Origin: Collinsella sp. An268
GTDB taxonomy: Bacteria > Actinomycetota > Coriobacteriia > Coriobacteriales > Coriobacteriaceae
Length of the DNA stretch: 64,000 bases
Assembly: GCF_002159765.1 (NCBI RefSeq)
Contig: NZ_NFJH01000009.1
Coordinates: 1 to 64,000, forward strand
Reading direction: 5' to 3'
Both the position numbers and the translations under genes were made by a program. The first letter of the stretch is position 1. Each line of letters opens with the position of its first letter. This document shows, in pieces, positions 30,294-39,923 of the stretch. The notes under the pieces were generated by a model. The model was not told the origin of the DNA. It searched no databases and saw only the letters and a list, made by a program, of their open reading frames with translations.

Positions 30294-31516
30294 CGTGACC
30301 GTGCAGATCGCAGGGGAAGATGTTCTTGCGGGCCGCTTGTATCAGAACATTCGGCACGGCGAAGAGACCGCGAGTTTCAGGTACGCCCCCTCATATCTAG
30401 ATGACGCTCGTGCGTTCAGTTTGGCCCCCGACATGCCTTAGGTGACGGTTCCTTCCATTCTCTCGGACTGCGATCGTTCGGCGCTCTGGAAGACGTCATG
30501 CCGAATCGGTGGGGAAGAAACCTGTTGCTTCGTTCAGAGCGGTCGGCAGCTCGCGCTGAGGGTAGGGCGGCGCGTACGCTCTTTGAGGCGGACATGCTTA
30601 CTGGCGTCAGCGACGAGGCACGGCAGGGCGCGTTGCGTGTGTGGGGTTCCGATGGGGAGGCGCTGTCTTCGCGTTCCTCTGGCGTCCCTAAGGAGGTGGC
30701 TATTCCGTCTCTGCTCGTTCTGCGGATAGGGCGGCGGTCGATATGGATGCCGATATTAAGGATCTGCTCGCGGCGGATTCGAGCTTGGGTGGAGCGCGGC
30801 CGAAAGCCTCCGTACGCGATGAGGCGGGGTGTCTTTGCATCGCAAAGCTTCCCAAGGTAGGCGAAGATTCTGTTGATGATGTCGGAGCTTGGGAATACGT
30901 TGCGCTGCAGCTCATGAGTAGGTGCGGAATTAACGTGCCCTCTTCTCGTCTGATGCGCATCGGTGGGCGCTCCGTGCTGTTGATGAGGCGATTTGACCGA
31001 GAAGGCGATAGCAGGACTCCATATCTGAGTGGATTGACGGCGGTGCAAGGCGTCGACGGCGGACGCTATAGCTATCTCGAGCTCGTGGAGTTTCTGGAAG
31101 CTTGGGGTGCTCGTCCCCATGCTGACCTTCCCGAGCTTTGGCTGCGGGCGCTATTCTCGTGCGCGATAGGCAATACGGATAATCATTTGCGCAACTACGG
31201 TTTCTTGCGTGAAGGCACCGGTTGGGCGCTATCTCCCGCTTTCGATGTGAACCCAACGCCGGGAGATGAGGCGAAGTATCTCAACACAGGTCTTGATTTT
31301 GACGTGCGCGAGGCAGATCCGCGGGTGGCGCTCAGCGCGTGCGAGTATTTCAGATTGGGCGCACCGGAGGCAAAAAGGCGAGCGCTTGCGATGGCGGAGG
31401 TGCTCAAGGGTTGGCGCTCTGTTGCGCGATCGTGCGGCATTTCCGAGGCTTCGATCGAGCGCATGAGGAGCTCGTTTGAGGCGGGTATCGCGAGGCTGCG
31501 CTCTGCGGCTCGCTAA
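30283..31516 (+). pseudogene. hipA: hipA kinase toxin, disrupted by two frameshifts
   Basis: HipA kinases phosphorylate tRNA-charging enzymes. The family sequence runs through three frames in order. Frame 1 (30283-30441) has MEYDVTVQIAGEDVLAGRLYQ to FSLAPDMP and then stop. Frame 2 (about 30440-30715) has LGDGSFHSLGLRSFGALEDVMPNRWGR to GVPKEVAIPSLL. Frame 3 (to 31516) has RSADRAAVDMDADIKDLLAADSSLGGARPKASVRD through LSPAFDVNPTP. Both breaks correspond to the loss of one base (near 30437 and 30715). The core motifs SSLGGARPKASV and IGNTDNHLRNYGF survive. GGAGG precedes the ATG. A sequencing error cannot be ruled out. Confidence 0.85.
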
Positions 31517-31830: not shown

Positions 31831-34380
31831 ATGTCTCATCCTGTTCTTGGCACGCCCTGGCATGCGGGCACGGGCACCGTGTCCGCCGACGAGCTCGCCG
31901 GCGTCGAGCGTTACTGGCGCTGCGCCAACTACCTCTCCGTCGGTCAGATCTACGTCCGGAGCAACCCGCTCATGCGCTCCGATTACCCGGATGCCAAGAC
32001 CGGTGAGCCCCGCGCCTTCGGACGTGTCGACGTCAAGCACCGCCTCGTGGGCCACTGGGGCACCACGCCGGGCATCAACTTCCTGTTCGCGCACGTAAAC
32101 CGCCTTATCGCCGACCATGGGCAGAACGCCATCTTCCTCATGGGCCCCGGGCACGGCGGTCCGGCGGGCACGGCGCAGTCGCTGCTCGACGGTACGTACC
32201 GCGAGATTCGCCCCGACATCACCGATGATGAGGCGGGCCTCGAGAAGTTCTTCCGCCAGTTCTCCTACCCGGGCGGCATCCCGAGCCACTTCGCGCCCGA
32301 AACCCCCGGCTCCATCCACGAGGGCGGCGAGCTCGGCTACACGCTCTCCCATGCGTACGGCGCGGTGCTCGACAACCCGAGTCTGCTCGCGGTCGCCGTG
32401 GTGGGCGACGGCGAGGCGGAGACCGGCCCGCTCGCCACGAGCTGGCAGTCCAATAAGCTCGTGAACCCCGCGACCGACGGCATCGTCTTGCCGGTCCTGC
32501 ACCTCAATGGCTATAAGATCGCCAACCCCACAATCCTCGCGCGCATCTCCGACGAGGAGCTCCAGAAGTTCTTCGAGGGCATGGGTTACGAGCCGCATTT
32601 CTTCGTCGCGGGCTTTGACGACGAGAGCCACGAGAGCATCCACGCCCGCTTCGCCGCCCTGCTCGAAGAGGTCTTCGGTAAGATCTGCGCCATCAAGGAG
32701 CGCGCGGTTGCCCAGGCGGCCGCGGGCGAGGAGGTCACGCGCCCGGTCTACCCCATGATTGTCTTCCGCACGCCCAAGGGCTGGACCTGCCCCAAGGTTA
32801 TCGACGGCAAGAAGACCGAGGATTCGTGGCGCGCGCATCAGGTGCCGCTGGCAAGTGCCAAGGACACTCACGAGCACTTCCGCGTGCTGCGCGGCTGGCT
32901 CGAGTCCTACCAGCCCGATGAGCTCTTCACGCCGGAGGGGCAGATTCGCCCCGAGGTCAACGGCTGGATGCCTACCGGCGACCTGCGCATCGGCGCAAAT
33001 CCCAACGCCAACGGCGGCACCGTACGCGAGGACCTCGTGCTCCCCGACCTTCATGCTCACGAGGTGCCGGTTGCCGAGCGCGGGCACGGGTACGGCCAGA
33101 CCGAGGCGGCGCGCGTCTTCGGTGCCTACACGGCGGACGTGCTCGCTGCCAACCCCGAGAACTTCCGCATCTTCGGGCCGGATGAGACCGCATCCAACCG
33201 TCTGCAGGACGCCTATCAGGTCACCAAGAAGCAGTGGGAGGCGGGCCACTACGCCGACGAGGCGAACGACGACCTGCTCGCCCCCTTGGGCAAGGTCATC
33301 GAGCAGCTGTCCGAGCACCAGTGCGAGGGCTTCCTCGAGGCGTACGTGCTCACCGGCCGCCACGGTGTGTGGTCGAGCTACGAGAGCTTCGTGCACGTGG
33401 TCGACTCCATGGTGAACCAGCACTGCAAGTGGCTCGAGGCCACCAAGCGCGAGATCCCGTGGCGCAAGCCCATCGCCGGCCTCAACATCCTGCTGTCGAG
33501 CCATGTGTGGCGCCAGGACCACAACGGCTTCAGCCATCAGGATCCCGGCTTCATCGACCTTCTACTCAACAAGGCGAACGACACGCACATCGTGAACGCC
33601 TACTACCCCTGCGACGCCAACATGGCGCTCGCCGTAGCGGAGCGCGCCTACACCTCGACCGACTGCGTCAACGCCATCTTCTGCGGCAAGCAGCCCGCGC
33701 CGACCTTCATCTCGGTCGATGAGGCTAAGGCTGAGCTCGCCGAGGGCCTGGCCGTGTGGAACTGGGCGTCCACGGCGGAGTCGCTCGTCGATGCCGACGT
33801 GGTTATCGCGACCTGCGGCGACGTGCCCACACTCGAGGCGCTCGCGGCCGTCGACCTGCTGCGCGAGCAGGGTGTCAAGGTCTGGTTCGTGAACGTGGTC
33901 GACCTGCTCAAGATCCAGAACGCCTGCGAGAACGACCAGGCGCTGTCCGACGAGCGCTTCGCCGAGTTCTTCGGCGCGGGCGAGAAGCCGGTGCTCTTCT
34001 GCTTCCACGCCTACGCGGGCACCATCCGTCGTCTCGTCTGGGCGCGCCCCGGCCACGACGCCTGGTGCGTGCACGGCTACGAGGAGAAGGGCTCCACGAC
34101 CACGCCGTTCGACATGCTGCGCCTGAACAATATGGACCGCTGGGCGCTGGCCGCCGAGGCCCTGCGCCTCGTGGACGGCGCCGCCGGTACCGCCACGCAC
34201 GCCGAGCAGGCCGAGGCCTGGGACGCCTTCCGCGACGAGGCCTTCCGCTTCGCCGTGGAGGAGGGCTACGATCACCCGGCCTTCACCGACTGGGTCTGGC
34301 CCGACGCGCGCGCCGCGACCGAGGCAGATGCGGCTGCCGGCCTCTCGGCCACGCAGATGACCGCGGGCGACAACGAGTAG
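31831..34380 (+). CDS. xfp: Xylulose-5-P/fructose-6-P phosphoketolase
   Basis: This 849-residue TPP enzyme splits xylulose 5-phosphate (and often fructose 6-phosphate) to acetyl phosphate and glyceraldehyde 3-phosphate (erythrose 4-phosphate from the hexose). Family motifs are [68 protein letters not shown] (TPP motif), [39 protein letters not shown] and [18 protein letters not shown]. Length is typical. AAAGGAG precedes the ATG. It is a single-gene unit with its own operators and terminator. It could take xylulose 5-phosphate produced by the transketolase pathway at 8-13 kb. Confidence 0.96.
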
Positions 34381-34611: not shown

Positions 34612-36861
34612 TTAGGCGCGATGGGGGAGCTTCTTCTCGAAGGCGCGACGGGCGCCTGCCTCCTCGGTGTCGGTGAGCGCCTCGAGCGGCTTCTCGATAC
34701 CGCGCCGGCGGAGCGCCCAGGCGATGAGCCAGTCCGCAAGCGCGGGGTTCTTGGAAAGCACCGGCCCGTGGAAATACGTGCCCACCAAGCCATGGTGCAC
34801 GATGCCCTCGTACCCATCGGTGCCGTTGTTGCCGGTGCCGGCCACCACGCTCGTCCCGAGCGGCGCCTCGTCCGCATCGAGGTAGGTGCGGCCGCCGTGG
34901 TTCTCAAAGCCCAGGATGTCCGCATCGACGATGTCTGCGCGCACGGCGACGTTGCCGATGAGGCGGTCCGTGGGGTTGTCGGCGCGGCGCGTCTCGATGC
35001 CGATGACGCCGAGACCCTCGATCTTCTCGTCTCCGAGGAAGTAGTGGCGACCCAGCAGCTGGTAGCCGCCGCAGATGGCGAGCATGGCGCCCTTGTCGTG
35101 GTTGAGGTAGCGGTCGACGGCCTCGCGGTGCCGCATGAGCTCGTGCTGGACGGCCAGCTGGTCGCGATCGGCGCCGCCGCCGATGACGGCAATGTCCACG
35201 CCCGAGAGGTCGGCCGCCTCACCGCGGTTGAGGGTCGTTACGCGCACGGGGATGCCGCGCCACGCGCAGCGCGCCGCGAGGATGGCGACGTTGCCCGTGT
35301 CGCCGTAGAGGTTGAGCTCCTGCGGGTAGAGGTGGCAGATGGTGAGCGGCCGTGCGGCGAGCTCGCGGTAGAGGGGGGCTATGGTGCCGCGACCTACGAG
35401 CGACCAGCGCGCCCAGGCGGCGTCGTCCGCGCAAAGCGCGTCCGCGGCGGCATGGGTGCGCACGCCTTGGGGCGTCTCGCCGGCGGGCAGGCGGTCGAGC
35501 TCGTCGCACAGCTCGAGCGTCGCGGTGTAGTTGCCCACGATGTAGAGGGTGTCCGCCGCGCCTATCCCCGCGCTCGCCGCGCGGTTGATGGCCTCCTCGG
35601 CGCTGCGCACCACCGTGGAGGGCACGCCGGCGTACTTGAGGCGCACCTGCAGGTCCTCGGCGCGCGTGCCGCCGGCGTATACGGTGAGGCCGCGCATGCG
35701 GGCGAGCCGCTCGAAGTCGACGTCGTAGATCCATGAGATGTCGTGACCGTCGGCGTCCTTATCGTTGATGTAGAAGGCGCAGGCACGCGCTTCGGTCGCT
35801 TGGATGATCTGGATGATGCGGTCGAACCCGACCGGGTTCTTCGCAAGGTTGACGAGGAGCTTGCGCCCCTTGACGGTGAGCTTCTGCATGCGGCCGCGCG
35901 CGGGCTGGTAGCGGTCGAGGGTTTGCTGGAAGCGCGCGCCGTCGGCGCCCATGAGGGTCGCCGCGGTGAGCGCCGCCATGGCGTTGTAGACCATGTAGAG
36001 GCCGTGGTAGGCGATGTGCGCCGTGCAGGGGAAGCCCGCGCGCGCCGCATCGCGCGCCTCCAGGGTGAAGCGCTGGCCATCCTCGGTCGTCTCGACGGAC
36101 GTGACGGCAAAGGCGAGGTCGGGGCGCTGCCAGCCGCACGTGGGGCACCGGTAGGAGCCGAGCTGGCCGTACAGCACGTACTCATAGGTGAGGGGCGCGT
36201 TGCACACCGCGCAGAAGCGGCTGTCGGAGACTTTGTCGGGCTCCTCATCGCCCGCCGCCGTCGCCGCAAAGCCAAAGGCGATGGTGGGGTTCTCCACCCG
36301 CCGCGCGATGGCGGCGCAGAGCGGGTCGTCGGCGTTGTAGATAAGGGTCGTGGCCGGCGAGGAGGCGAGCGCCCCCGCGATGACATCTTGGGTGTGGTCG
36401 ATCTCGCCGTAGCGGTCGAGTTGGTCGCGGAAGAGATTCAGCAGCACAAGATACGTGGGCTTGAGCTTGGGGAGCACCCGCGCCGTGTAGAGCTCGTCGC
36501 ACTCAAAGCACCCGATCGCCGCGGGGCCCGAGGCTCCGCGGGCGGCCCTTGCCCGGCGCCGATCCTCCAAGATGGCCCCTGCGATGCCGGCCTCCATGTT
36601 GTTGCCGGCGCGGTTGGTGATGACGCAGGTACCGTCTGCGGCGAGGCAGTCGGCCAGCAGGTTGGTGGTGGTGGTCTTGCCGTTGGTGCCGGTTACCACC
36701 ACGGATGCTGCGAAAAGGGGCGCCATCTCGCGCAAGATCCCGGGGTCAAGGCGCAGGGCGATGATACCGGGGATGCTGCCTCCGCGCCGGTGGAGCACGC
36801 GCTGGATCCCAAAGCGGGCGATGGATGCCGCGGTGGCGGCGGCGGTGCTGCGTACGCTCAT
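34612..36861 (-). CDS. Fused lipid II isoglutaminyl synthase MurT-GatD
   Basis: One 749-residue chain joins two enzymes that are normally separate and together amidate D-glutamate in lipid II. Residues ~1-470 are MurT, a Mur-ligase relative: ATP loop TGTNGKTTT (57-65), GCFECDE, a zinc ribbon (C217, C220, C239, C242) and the DxSWxxD motif (374-380). Residues ~500-745 are GatD, the glutaminase: nucleophile C597 in AICGGYQLLG and H698 in GTYFHGP. The junction near 470-505 is an Ala-rich segment followed by RPLTICHLYPQELNLYGDTGN, the usual GatD start. GGGGAGAG precedes the ATG. Nothing suggests loss of function. Confidence 0.93.
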   Translation of the reverse strand: MSVRSTAAATAASIARFGIQRVLHRRGGSIPGIIALRLDPGILREMAPLFAASVVVTGTNGKTTTTNLLADCLAADGTCVITNRAGNNMEAGIAGAILEDRRRARAARGASGPAAIGCFECDELYTARVLPKLKPTYLVLLNLFRDQLDRYGEIDHTQDVIAGALASSPATTLIYNADDPLCAAIARRVENPTIAFGFAATAAGDEEPDKVSDSRFCAVCNAPLTYEYVLYGQLGSYRCPTCGWQRPDLAFAVTSVETTEDGQRFTLEARDAARAGFPCTAHIAYHGLYMVYNAMAALTAATLMGADGARFQQTLDRYQPARGRMQKLTVKGRKLLVNLAKNPVGFDRIIQIIQATEARACAFYINDKDADGHDISWIYDVDFERLARMRGLTVYAGGTRAEDLQVRLKYAGVPSTVVRSAEEAINRAASAGIGAADTLYIVGNYTATLELCDELDRLPAGETPQGVRTHAAADALCADDAAWARWSLVGRGTIAPLYRELAARPLTICHLYPQELNLYGDTGNVAILAARCAWRGIPVRVTTLNRGEAADLSGVDIAVIGGGADRDQLAVQHELMRHREAVDRYLNHDKGAMLAICGGYQLLGRHYFLGDEKIEGLGVIGIETRRADNPTDRLIGNVAVRADIVDADILGFENHGGRTYLDADEAPLGTSVVAGTGNNGTDGYEGIVHHGLVGTYFHGPVLSKNPALADWLIAWALRRRGIEKPLEALTDTEEAGARRAFEKKLPHRA

Positions 36862-37029: not shown

Positions 37030-38538
37030 CTACAGGTTGTAGAGGGCAGAGAACTTCTTGACCAGATAATCGCAGTAATACGTCGCGTCAAACGGGGCAC
37101 CGCACGCGCCTGCGATGAGCTCGGGGGCGTCCTTGCCGCGACCCCAGCGCCAGATGCGGTCGCGCAGCCAGTCGCGCACCGGGGCCAGGTCGCCGGAGGC
37201 GCTGGCGCCGTCCACATCTATGCCTGCGCGTTCCATGGCGTCCACGTATTGCGCGCCGTAAGCGCTGCCGAGCGCGTAGCTCGGGAAATACCCGAAGCTG
37301 CCGCCCGACCAGTGCGTGTCCTGCAGGCAGCCGAGGGTGTCGTTGGGGACGTCGAGCCCCAGATAGCGCCGGGTGAGCTCGCGCCAGAGCGTCGGGATGT
37401 CGGCGACGCGCGCCTCGCCGGCAAAGAGCGCCCGCTCGATGTCGTAGCGGATCATGATGTGGAGCGGGTAGGTGAGCTCGTCGGCCTCCATGCGGATCAG
37501 CTGCGGGTGGGCGAGGTTGGCGGCGCGGTAGAGATCGTCGGCGCTCACGCTGCTGTACACCTCGGGTGCGTGCTTGCGGAGCACGGCAAGCAGGGGCTCC
37601 GCAAAGGCGCGCGACCGACCGACGATGTTCTCGAAAAAGCGGCTCTGGCTCTCGTGGATGCCCATCGAGGTGCCCCCGTCGAGGCACGTCCACGCGTAGG
37701 CGGGGTCGACATTCTGCTCGTATATGGCGTGACCGCCCTCATGCAGGATGGAGAAGACGTTGGAGAGCGCGTCCGTCTCATAGATGTGGGTCGTCACGCG
37801 CACGTCTCCGGGGGCAAAGCCGTCGGAGAAGGGATGCTCCACCTCCGCCACGGCGCAGCCGTCCATAACGAGCCCCTCGAGCTCGAGCAGGTCGCGCGCG
37901 ATGGCGAGCTGTGCCGCGCGGTCGACGCGGGCGCTCCTAAAGGGGAGGTCGGGCGCCGGTTGGGGAGCGATCTCGCGGACAAGCGGCACCACCGTCTCTT
38001 TCACCTGGGCGAAGAACGCGTCGTAGGCGGCGGTGTCCATGCCGCGCTCGTACTGGTCGAGCAGCACGTCATAGGCGTCGCGCGCAGGGTCGAGCGCCTC
38101 CGCGCGGCGGCGGCAGGCGTCTACGATGCGCTCGACATAGGGCTCAAAGGACGCCCAGTCGTCGGCGAGCTTGGCGTGGTGCCACACGGCGTTCGCCTCG
38201 CTGGTGAGCTTGCTCCAGGCGATCTCCTCCTCGGTGGGGATGGCGCGCGCCTCGCGCTGGTCGCGGCTAAAGACATGGAGCTCGGTGGCCGTTTGGGCGT
38301 CAAGAGTGCCGGCGGCGGCGTCGGCCTCAAGCTCGGCGACGAGCCTCACCGATGCGTCAGAGGTCGTGAGTTCGTGCATCTCGCCGGCGAGGGCGCCCAT
38401 GGCCTCGGCGCGCGCGGCGGCGCCGTTCTCGGGCGCGACGGTCTCTCCGTCGAACTCGAGCACGCTCATGAGGTAGTACTTCTGCTGGAGGGTGCGCTGC
38501 AGCTGTTTGAACGCGTCGATGCGGGAGGTTTCGCTCAT
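37030..38538 (-). CDS. Carboxypeptidase Taq (M32 metallopeptidase)
   Basis: A 502-residue cytoplasmic metallocarboxypeptidase that trims C-terminal residues from peptides. The zinc motif HEGGH is in FSILHEGGHAIYEQ (around residue 267), with the M32 signature GTSMGIHESQSRFFEN and the downstream IRYDIERALF and GYFPSYALGSAYGAQ. Length is typical of the family. The frame is open to 38679, but ATG 38538 is preceded by AAAGGAG. It lies 168 bases upstream of the MurT-GatD gene on the same strand; co-transcription is possible but not required. Confidence 0.95.
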   Translation of the reverse strand: MSETSRIDAFKQLQRTLQQKYYLMSVLEFDGETVAPENGAAARAEAMGALAGEMHELTTSDASVRLVAELEADAAAGTLDAQTATELHVFSRDQREARAIPTEEEIAWSKLTSEANAVWHHAKLADDWASFEPYVERIVDACRRRAEALDPARDAYDVLLDQYERGMDTAAYDAFFAQVKETVVPLVREIAPQPAPDLPFRSARVDRAAQLAIARDLLELEGLVMDGCAVAEVEHPFSDGFAPGDVRVTTHIYETDALSNVFSILHEGGHAIYEQNVDPAYAWTCLDGGTSMGIHESQSRFFENIVGRSRAFAEPLLAVLRKHAPEVYSSVSADDLYRAANLAHPQLIRMEADELTYPLHIMIRYDIERALFAGEARVADIPTLWRELTRRYLGLDVPNDTLGCLQDTHWSGGSFGYFPSYALGSAYGAQYVDAMERAGIDVDGASASGDLAPVRDWLRDRIWRWGRGKDAPELIAGACGAPFDATYYCDYLVKKFSALYNL

Positions 38539-38789
38539 GGCAACTCCTTTGTGGGGACGGTTGGGGCGGCGGCCCCAGTCGATATCCGCTCGATAGCATA
38601 CCCAAGAGCGCACGCCCGATACCGCGGCGCGCCGGCACGGGTAGGCAGGTCCCTGCGTGTCGGCGCGAAACGGGCGCATCCCCGCCAGGGGGTGATGCGA
38701 TACATTGACGATATTGTAGATAGCGTCAACAATGTGCCTCTCTCTGGTAGCATGATGCCCGTTTGTGCAACGGGAGAAAGAGAGCGCAC

Positions 38790-39923
38790 ATGGAAAAGAG
38801 GCCCATGAGCAGGGTGAAGAAAGTCGTTCTGGGCGTTGTCGGCGTACTGGTGGCGCTGGTCATCGTGGCCGCCGTGGCCGTCTTCGCCCTCTTTGGACAC
38901 GAGCTTGCCACGCTCGGGTCCATCGAGAAGGTCAACGACTACCCGCTCTACACCATGACGTACGATGGCGATTACGGTATCGACGAGTTTATCGCCCAGG
39001 GCGGCGCCTCCAACGACGGCGAGCTCATCCAGTTTGTGGTGAACCGCATCATGAAGGGCCTGCCCATCACCATTGACCTGCCCGATCTGGCGTGCTCGAC
39101 GTTCAACGCGACGACGTCGGAGGGTGACGCGCTCTTTGGGCGCAACTTCGACCTGTCCTTCTCGCCGGGCATGCTCGTGCGCACCGACCCTGCGGACGGG
39201 TACGCGAGCGTATCCATGGTGAACCTGGGCTTTCTGGGCTACGGCGAGGACAAGCTACCCGAGGACCTCGTCTCGAGTTTGACGACGCTCGCCGCGCCGT
39301 ACGCGCCGCTCGACGGCATGAATGAGGCGGGGCTTGCCGTGGGCGTACTCCTTATCGACACCGACCCGACCGACCAGCAGACCGATAAGGTCGACATCAC
39401 CACGACGACGGCCATCCGCATGATGCTCGACAGCTGCGCGACCGTGGATGAGGCCGTGGCGCTGCTGGAGCAGTACGACATGCACTCGAGCGCCAACAGC
39501 TGCTACCACTTCCAGATCGCGGACGCCTCGGGTGCGTCGGTGGTCGTTGAGTACATCGGCAACGAGATGAGCGTGCTCGAGCCCGGCGACGCGACCACTA
39601 TGGGGGCGCTTTCCGGCGCGGCGGGCGTGACGTACCAGGCGGCGACGAACTTCCTGCTCACGCCGGGCGAGTACGACTTCGGCCACGGCCAGGACCGCTA
39701 CGAGACGCTCATGAGCACGCTCAGCGCCGCGTCGGGCGTGCTTGCCGAGGACGAGGCGATGGACCTGCTCGCAGCCGTCGCGCAGGAGCCGCACCTCAAT
39801 AGCCGTGGCGAGGAGAGCGCCACGCAGTGGTCGGTCGTATATAACCTGGATGACCTCACGGCGCGCATCGTCATGGGCGGTGCCTATGACGAGCCGGCGT
39901 ATGAGGTGAGCCTCGTCTCGTAG
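38790..39923 (+). CDS. Membrane-anchored linear-amide C-N hydrolase (Ntn fold)
   Basis: A ~377-residue protein with one N-terminal membrane segment (VVLGVVGVLVALVIVAAVAVFALFG without a cleavage site) and an outside catalytic domain. C102 in ACSTFNATTSEGDALFGRNFD is the likely N-terminal nucleophile after self-cleavage, and RNFD matches the C45/choloylglycine-hydrolase relatives. Further family blocks are MNEAGLAVGVLLID, TTTAIRMMLDSCATVDEAVALLE and QWSVVYNLDDLTARIVMG. Such enzymes cut amide bonds in acyl amino acids, beta-lactam precursors or conjugated bile acids. The long pro-segment argues against a classic bile salt hydrolase. ATG 38805 is an alternative start. Confidence 0.8.
   Translation: MEKRPMSRVKKVVLGVVGVLVALVIVAAVAVFALFGHELATLGSIEKVNDYPLYTMTYDGDYGIDEFIAQGGASNDGELIQFVVNRIMKGLPITIDLPDLACSTFNATTSEGDALFGRNFDLSFSPGMLVRTDPADGYASVSMVNLGFLGYGEDKLPEDLVSSLTTLAAPYAPLDGMNEAGLAVGVLLIDTDPTDQQTDKVDITTTTAIRMMLDSCATVDEAVALLEQYDMHSSANSCYHFQIADASGASVVVEYIGNEMSVLEPGDATTMGALSGAAGVTYQAATNFLLTPGEYDFGHGQDRYETLMSTLSAASGVLAEDEAMDLLAAVAQEPHLNSRGEESATQWSVVYNLDDLTARIVMGGAYDEPAYEVSLVS

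Follow-up and report, generated by a model that had tools for sequence, protein, structure and literature searches.

Lipid II isoglutaminyl synthases are known from S. aureus, S. pneumoniae and S. pyogenes (PDB 6gs2, 6h5e, 7q8e, 6fqb, 9sq9 and 9sqj). According to the accessible text of PMC3266927, murT and gatD are essential in S. aureus, where both proteins are required and seem to associate in a stable complex, and the corresponding text of PMC6113224 likewise treats the two-chain enzyme as a stable complex. The same portion of PMC6113224 describes a MurT N-terminus that is truncated relative to other Mur ligases, a Cys4 zinc ribbon inserted in a subset of MurT members only, an aspartate of S. 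aureus MurT (D349) that is the third member of a putative catalytic triad, and an extra C-terminal helix of GatD, alpha7, that touches MurT. Passages of PMC8210147 name R128 as a glutamine-binding residue of GatD, and Rv3712/Rv3713 as the probable MurT/GatD pair of M. tuberculosis. The first-pass annotation of the DNA studied here held that MurT and GatD are two proteins in the species studied; this is true of the solved complexes, but merged murT/gatD open reading frames had been noted in "some rare cases" of Actinobacteria in 2012, with three fused-ORF cases in the available text (PMC3267633).

The window, by which we mean the whole stretch of 64,000 nucleotides analysed here, carries a fused murT–gatD gene at 34612..36861 (-). 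The gene is a single uninterrupted frame of 749 codons that starts with ATG, has no internal stop codon and encodes 749 aa. As had been proposed, this one chain joins a complete MurT (Mur_ligase_M, zinc-ribbon Cys4 and MurT_C) to a GatD (GATase_3), and every active-site residue named for it is present. The Mur ligase middle domain, Mur_ligase_M, spans residues 56-203 (36253..36696 (-); Pfam PF08245, over the gathering score) and includes the ATP-binding P-loop GTNGKTT at residues 58-64 (36670..36690 (-)), whose K62 is found in 105/105 fused loci. The P-loop is preceded by 57 residues, which fits the truncated N-terminus of MurT. The zinc-ribbon cysteines C217, C220, C239 and C242 (36136..36213 (-)) are assigned that role from the part of PMC6113224 available. 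MurT_C follows at residues 339-447 (35521..35847 (-); PF08353, 100.3 bits against a cut-off of 25) and contains DISWIYD at residues 374-380 (35722..35742 (-); D374-x-S376-W377-x-x-D380, the DxSWxxD motif), in which D374 aligns to S. aureus MurT D349. The glutamine amidotransferase domain of GatD, GATase_3, occupies residues 507-705 (34747..35343 (-); PF07685, 106.8 bits against a cut-off of 27). Its catalytic cysteine C597 (35071..35073 (-)) and histidine H698 (34768..34770 (-)) align to C94 and H189 of S. aureus GatD, and R633 aligns to R128. All equivalences to S. aureus MurT and GatD were obtained by counting positions along HMMER alignments.

These residues are strongly conserved. K62, E120, D374, S376, W377, C597 and H698 are identical in 173/173 lineage-A loci compared. 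This set, which is redundant and includes the window and near copies, comprises 105 fused loci, 48 split loci of Coriobacteriia and 20 split loci of other Actinomycetota. With C597 and H698 present here and kept throughout, a dead GatD half can be ruled out. The zinc ribbon is more variable: its fourth cysteine is Gly in L006, L022 and 12/48 split Coriobacteriia loci, all with intact catalytic MurT residues, and the ribbon seems, from these replacements, dispensable in some lineages. Searches of the PDB matched the N-terminal half to MurT and residues 505-731 to GatD, in each case of S. aureus, S. pneumoniae and S. pyogenes; identity to the structures is about 28-33% (MurT) and 34-39% (GatD). 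The best NCBIfam families were lipid II isoglutaminyl synthase MurT (257.6 bits) and GatD (179.7 and 173.3 bits), with other Mur ligases far behind. The equivalogs NF045635 (MurT, 257.6 bits against a cut-off of 800; E 2.2e-76) and NF045636 (GatD, 173.3 against 400; E 5.9e-51) score below their curated whole-protein cut-offs, which constitute a naming rule narrower than the MurT/GatD family.

Predicted structure agrees with these assignments. An AlphaFold model of the fused protein, made with a 41-row alignment as input, had a mean pLDDT of 88.4 and a pTM of 0.82. Its GatD half superimposed on 9sq9_C (Z 32.4, rmsd 2.2, 242 residues), 6h5e_A (Z 31.8, 239 residues, model residues 500-749) and 6fqb_E (Z 31.5). 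The MurT half matched 7q8e_A with Z 29.9 but an rmsd of 7.5, which we read as a probable difference in how the two MurT domains are placed in the model. A C-terminal helix predicted at residues 732-742 (34636..34668 (-)), within the range aligned to 6h5e_A, is probably the counterpart of GatD helix alpha7. The top Foldseek rows were the same MurT/GatD complexes; the remaining strong fold matches were mostly other Mur ligases or their relatives, together with folylpolyglutamate synthase and a plastid RNA polymerase chain.

The fused gene very probably encodes a lipid II isoglutaminyl synthase that is a single chain and works by the known mechanism. We favour this reading because one frame holds all the domains and catalytic residues, both halves are under purifying selection, the folds match and an internal gatD start is rare among fused loci. 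Candidatus Coprousia avicola L063 has the same fused frame, 98% identical to the window protein, and the ratios of computed dN and dS between the two are ~0.07 for MurT and ~0.07 for GatD (and ~0.14 for the linker, resting on just 7 differing bases). Purifying selection acts on both halves, and together with the fused copy in L063 this argues against a sequencing artefact. In the proposed mechanism, the C-terminal GatD half would hydrolyse glutamine by means of C597 and H698, and ammonia would move to the N-terminal MurT half. There MurT, with ATP and with D374 of its own, would activate the alpha-carboxyl of the D-isoglutamate residue of lipid II and amidate it. The halves would be held on a short flexible tether, probably docking as in the known heterodimer. 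Substrate, reaction and docking we infer from characterised homologues. What counts against this assignment is that the equivalog scores fall short and that the gene is missing from six of the eight genomes sampled in the window's genus, as against its essentiality in S. aureus.

To place the fusion among relatives, we classified fetched loci as fused or split with profile HMMs of the MurT and GatD halves. MurT_C matched in 283/396 Coriobacteriia genomes and in 189/396 genomes drawn across the phylum, Coriobacteriia included. Limits on presence, score and coverage retained 173 of 202 loci (105 fused, 68 split); the 29 dropped were L001 and L002, which are additional copies of the window, and 27 falling outside these limits (lineage B, incomplete pairs, MurT without GatD, L120 and other Mur ligases). 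Thinning to below 92% identity left a non-redundant set of 59 fused and 63 split loci. Among the fetched loci, a non-random sample in which top matches and chosen rows are over-represented, complete pairs from Coriobacteriia were fused in 105 cases and split in 48, so that fusion is common in Coriobacteriales yet variable; elsewhere in the phylum 20/20 were split. The latter comprise nine loci that had seemed to be candidate fusions, with open frames longer than 750 aa among the matches listed, and eleven others, and their uniformly split state indicates that long open frames alone are misleading.

The fused form predominates in the Coriobacteriaceae and Eggerthellaceae loci examined. Of 80 named loci kept from 456 relatives, 75 are fused, 4 (all Slackia) are split and the GatD part of 1 (L120) is interrupted by a stop. 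Named fused carriers include Collinsella aerofaciens, C. intestinalis, Olsenella and Thermophilibacter, as well as Eggerthella sinensis, Gordonibacter pamelaeae, Paraeggerthella, Ellagibacter and Enteroscipio. By family code, the other loci were fused/split 5/1 in f1, 18/7 in f3, 6/27 in f2 and 1/1 in f5, and 0/7 were fused in f4, f9, f14, f23 and f24 together. We infer that f1 and the window's genus, g1, hold Ca. Coprousia, that f2 is Atopobiaceae and that f3 is Eggerthellaceae. Seventeen of the 19 f2 genera have split loci only, g11 has fused loci only and g35 has both. In Slackia and most f2 genera murT ends in a stop codon and gatD starts a few bases on or overlaps it, whereas the window's gene is one frame; in Slackia isoflavoniconvertens the gatD start lies just past the murT stop and is preceded by a Shine-Dalgarno-like sequence. 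On the tree, the Slackia pairs (L113, L114, L115 and L130) and those of most f2 genera belong to the same family as the window protein.

The history of the fusion was examined on trees of concatenated MurT and GatD, with the linker excluded. The first used 95 of the 122 non-redundant rows and the second 63 of those 95, rows being thinned by hand before state changes were counted on the respective tree. Four fused/split changes are needed on the 95-row tree, which carries warnings of long branches meeting, an outgroup that is not one side of a branch and odd composition of some rows; three are needed on the 63-row tree, from which the longest rows were removed and in which four long rows are still flagged. 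One ancestral fusion inherited unchanged was rejected, both by an AU test of a single fused clade (p 6.5e-52) and by the bootstrap trees, 0/200 of which gave a single change on the 63-row set. A further AU test covered the fused rows minus g35, a group named after seeing the tree, and gave p 6.3e-05.

The 63-row tree puts Slackia as the sister of the fused Collinsella/Coprousia/Thermophilibacter clade (support 100/99). On this tree the window protein joins Collinsella first and then the fused Thermophilibacter/Olsenella copies of Atopobiaceae (100/100); an already fused gene was likely transferred between families. Two fused g35 loci are nested in the split Atopobiaceae clade, and two g33 loci are split inside the Eggerthellaceae fused clade. 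Of the 10 g35 genomes tested, 8 have the better-scoring of their two MurT_C matches in a short frame, of 466-556 aa. The fusions of the Eggerthellaceae type and of the Collinsella type represent either two gains or one gain with reversions, the branch joining them having support of 85/61. Within Coriobacteriales, then, the trees point to a fusion that arose more than once, or that arose and reverted. Such repeated gain or reversion looks like permissive variation in the architecture of a tightly paired operon, and not like a new mechanism.

At the locus itself the gene is a clean present/absent unit. In the window it is flanked by a phosphoketolase (31831-34380 (+)) and an M32 carboxypeptidase (37030-38679 (-)). 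Six of the eight sampled g1 genomes have no MurT_C match, and searching those six with the whole protein gave either nothing or only weak matches, at E 6e-6 or worse; the completeness of two of them is 81% and 89%. In four of these gene-less genomes the same two neighbours are juxtaposed, with a spacing of 247-248 bp in three genomes and 568 bp in one, against 2,655 bp in the window; in the remaining two they lie ~100 kb apart. The pattern reflects either gain in the carriers or loss in the others, and no insertion or mobile signature was obvious by eye at the locus. Nearby, the window also encodes a HipA_C-domain protein of 257 aa (30743-31516 (+); 144 bits over residues 13-219), presumably shorter than a full HipA kinase, and a linear amide C-N hydrolase of the choloylglycine hydrolase family (CBAH/AAT; 38763-39923 (+)), possibly a bile-salt-hydrolase-like enzyme or an acylase. 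The suggestion that fusion may be a lineage trait survives in part: the fused form does predominate in two families, but at least three state changes, the split Slackia pairs, the 17 f2 genera with split loci only and the six gene-less g1 genomes all speak against a simple trait.

A bolder reading, which we consider rather unlikely, is that covalent coupling of GatD to MurT was selected repeatedly in Coriobacteriales, through less ammonia loss or the absence of an idle GatD glutaminase, and that the fused gene then moved from family to family as one transferable cassette for cell-wall amidation. It draws on the grouping of the fused Thermophilibacter/Olsenella copies with Coriobacteriaceae and on the clean presence or absence of the gene in g1. 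The related proposal, made in the first-pass annotation, that the link would fix stoichiometry or improve ammonia channelling is speculation, because the split enzyme already pairs stably, sister lineages of either form coexist and the open-access PMC literature, in its accessible text, yielded no biochemistry, rates or cell-wall data on any fused member.

It is improbable that the window protein, while a real fused amidotransferase, acts on another acceptor, such as a different carboxyl of a peptidoglycan precursor or a soluble nucleotide precursor. This idea gains something from the modest identity to MurT structures and the low equivalog scores, from the reusable scaffold evident in a divergent MurT/GatD-like family of relatives, and from the literature searched, whose available text held no data on peptidoglycan composition or amidation for the window's genus or for Coriobacteriaceae. 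However, every catalytic and ATP-site residue examined is kept, and the fused loci are intermixed on the tree with split murT–gatD pairs of the same class.

The divergent family just mentioned is 27-31% identical to the window protein across five fused rows compared, and occurs fused (L203:4878-7130, L205:8066-10324, L207:8733-11045 and L208:7987-10479) and split (L204, L206 and L211 with gatD first, L209 and L210 with two pairs each, and L212). Its hosts are f2 genomes and f1 genomes, mostly of genus g3, which is probably Collinsella; the window's genome has its single MurT_C match in the fused gene. The P-loop and zinc ribbon are kept, but the catalytic Cys and His are both missing in 12/12 GatD-like halves examined, and the DxSW Asp in 12/12 MurT-like halves. 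Judged by these losses, the GatD-like half is a predicted pseudo-amidotransferase partner in fused and split forms alike, and the family may be a ligase that no longer uses glutamine. An amino-acid-kinase-family gene lies near the divergent pair in L206, L211 and L212 (3/3 regions scanned for that neighbour), an asparaginase in L206 and an M81 peptidase in L211. Separately, two MurT homologues of 38-39% identity (L218:5369-7033 and L219:5487-6857) keep the Cys4 and the DxSW Asp; no GatD match was found in the 13-kb regions around them, nor any GatD-region match in their genomes (G306 and G239) with the window protein as query.

Could the working enzyme instead be a two-chain heterodimer, with the chain cleaved post-translationally or free GatD made in addition from an internal start? 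We regard this as very improbable. The inter-domain linker, first placed at ~470-505, proved close to that position, at about residues 459-505 (35347..35487 (-)), with pLDDT below 50 only at 464-477, followed by two predicted short helices. This low-confidence stretch may be protease-sensitive. Across 59 non-redundant fused loci, linkers are 28-111 residues long (median 42) and rich in Ala (23.5%), Pro (9.7%) and Gly (9.4%), but they are unconserved in a 17-row alignment, in which no conserved cleavage motif was seen by eye. Near the GatD start, 1/59 fused versus 34/63 split non-redundant loci combine an ATG with a Shine-Dalgarno-like site; counting ATG, GTG or TTG, the figures are 10/59 and 43/63. 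The window's linker has one GTG, but no Shine-Dalgarno by the criterion used. The signal for free GatD has thus mostly been lost from fused genes, and a single chain is the expected product. Genome-wide (2.37 Mb, 26 contigs), MurT_C and GATase_3 have one match each at E <= 0.001, both inside the fused frame, and by that test there is no separate gatD.

The idea that the gene reads as one frame because a mistake in assembly or sequencing erased a stop or frameshift between adjacent genes, such as many relatives do have, is refuted by the fused copy in L063, which comes from another record, and is further contradicted by the 75 fused loci of 80 named, by linkers that add residues outside the domains and rarely carry a gatD start, and by the low dN/dS of both domains.

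The single-chain synthase that we favour offers several opportunities. Amidation of D-isoglutamate is discussed as a drug target, and a natural single-chain enzyme whose halves are made 1:1 would suit structural work and inhibitor assays. The occurrence of fused, split and absent states within one order also provides natural sister pairs in which to study the role of the link.

The fusion itself adds no new chemistry, and the architecture was already known: by description, the fused ORFs of 2012 (PMC3267633, as available) match that of the window, although here it is common, not rare, in Coriobacteriales. Its frequency, repeated change and patchiness we have not met in print. Set beside the known MurT/GatD enzymes, the window protein is alike in domain content, catalytic residues, ATP site, zinc ribbon and the fold of each half; it differs in that one 749-residue chain stands here where two polypeptides from an operon stand there.
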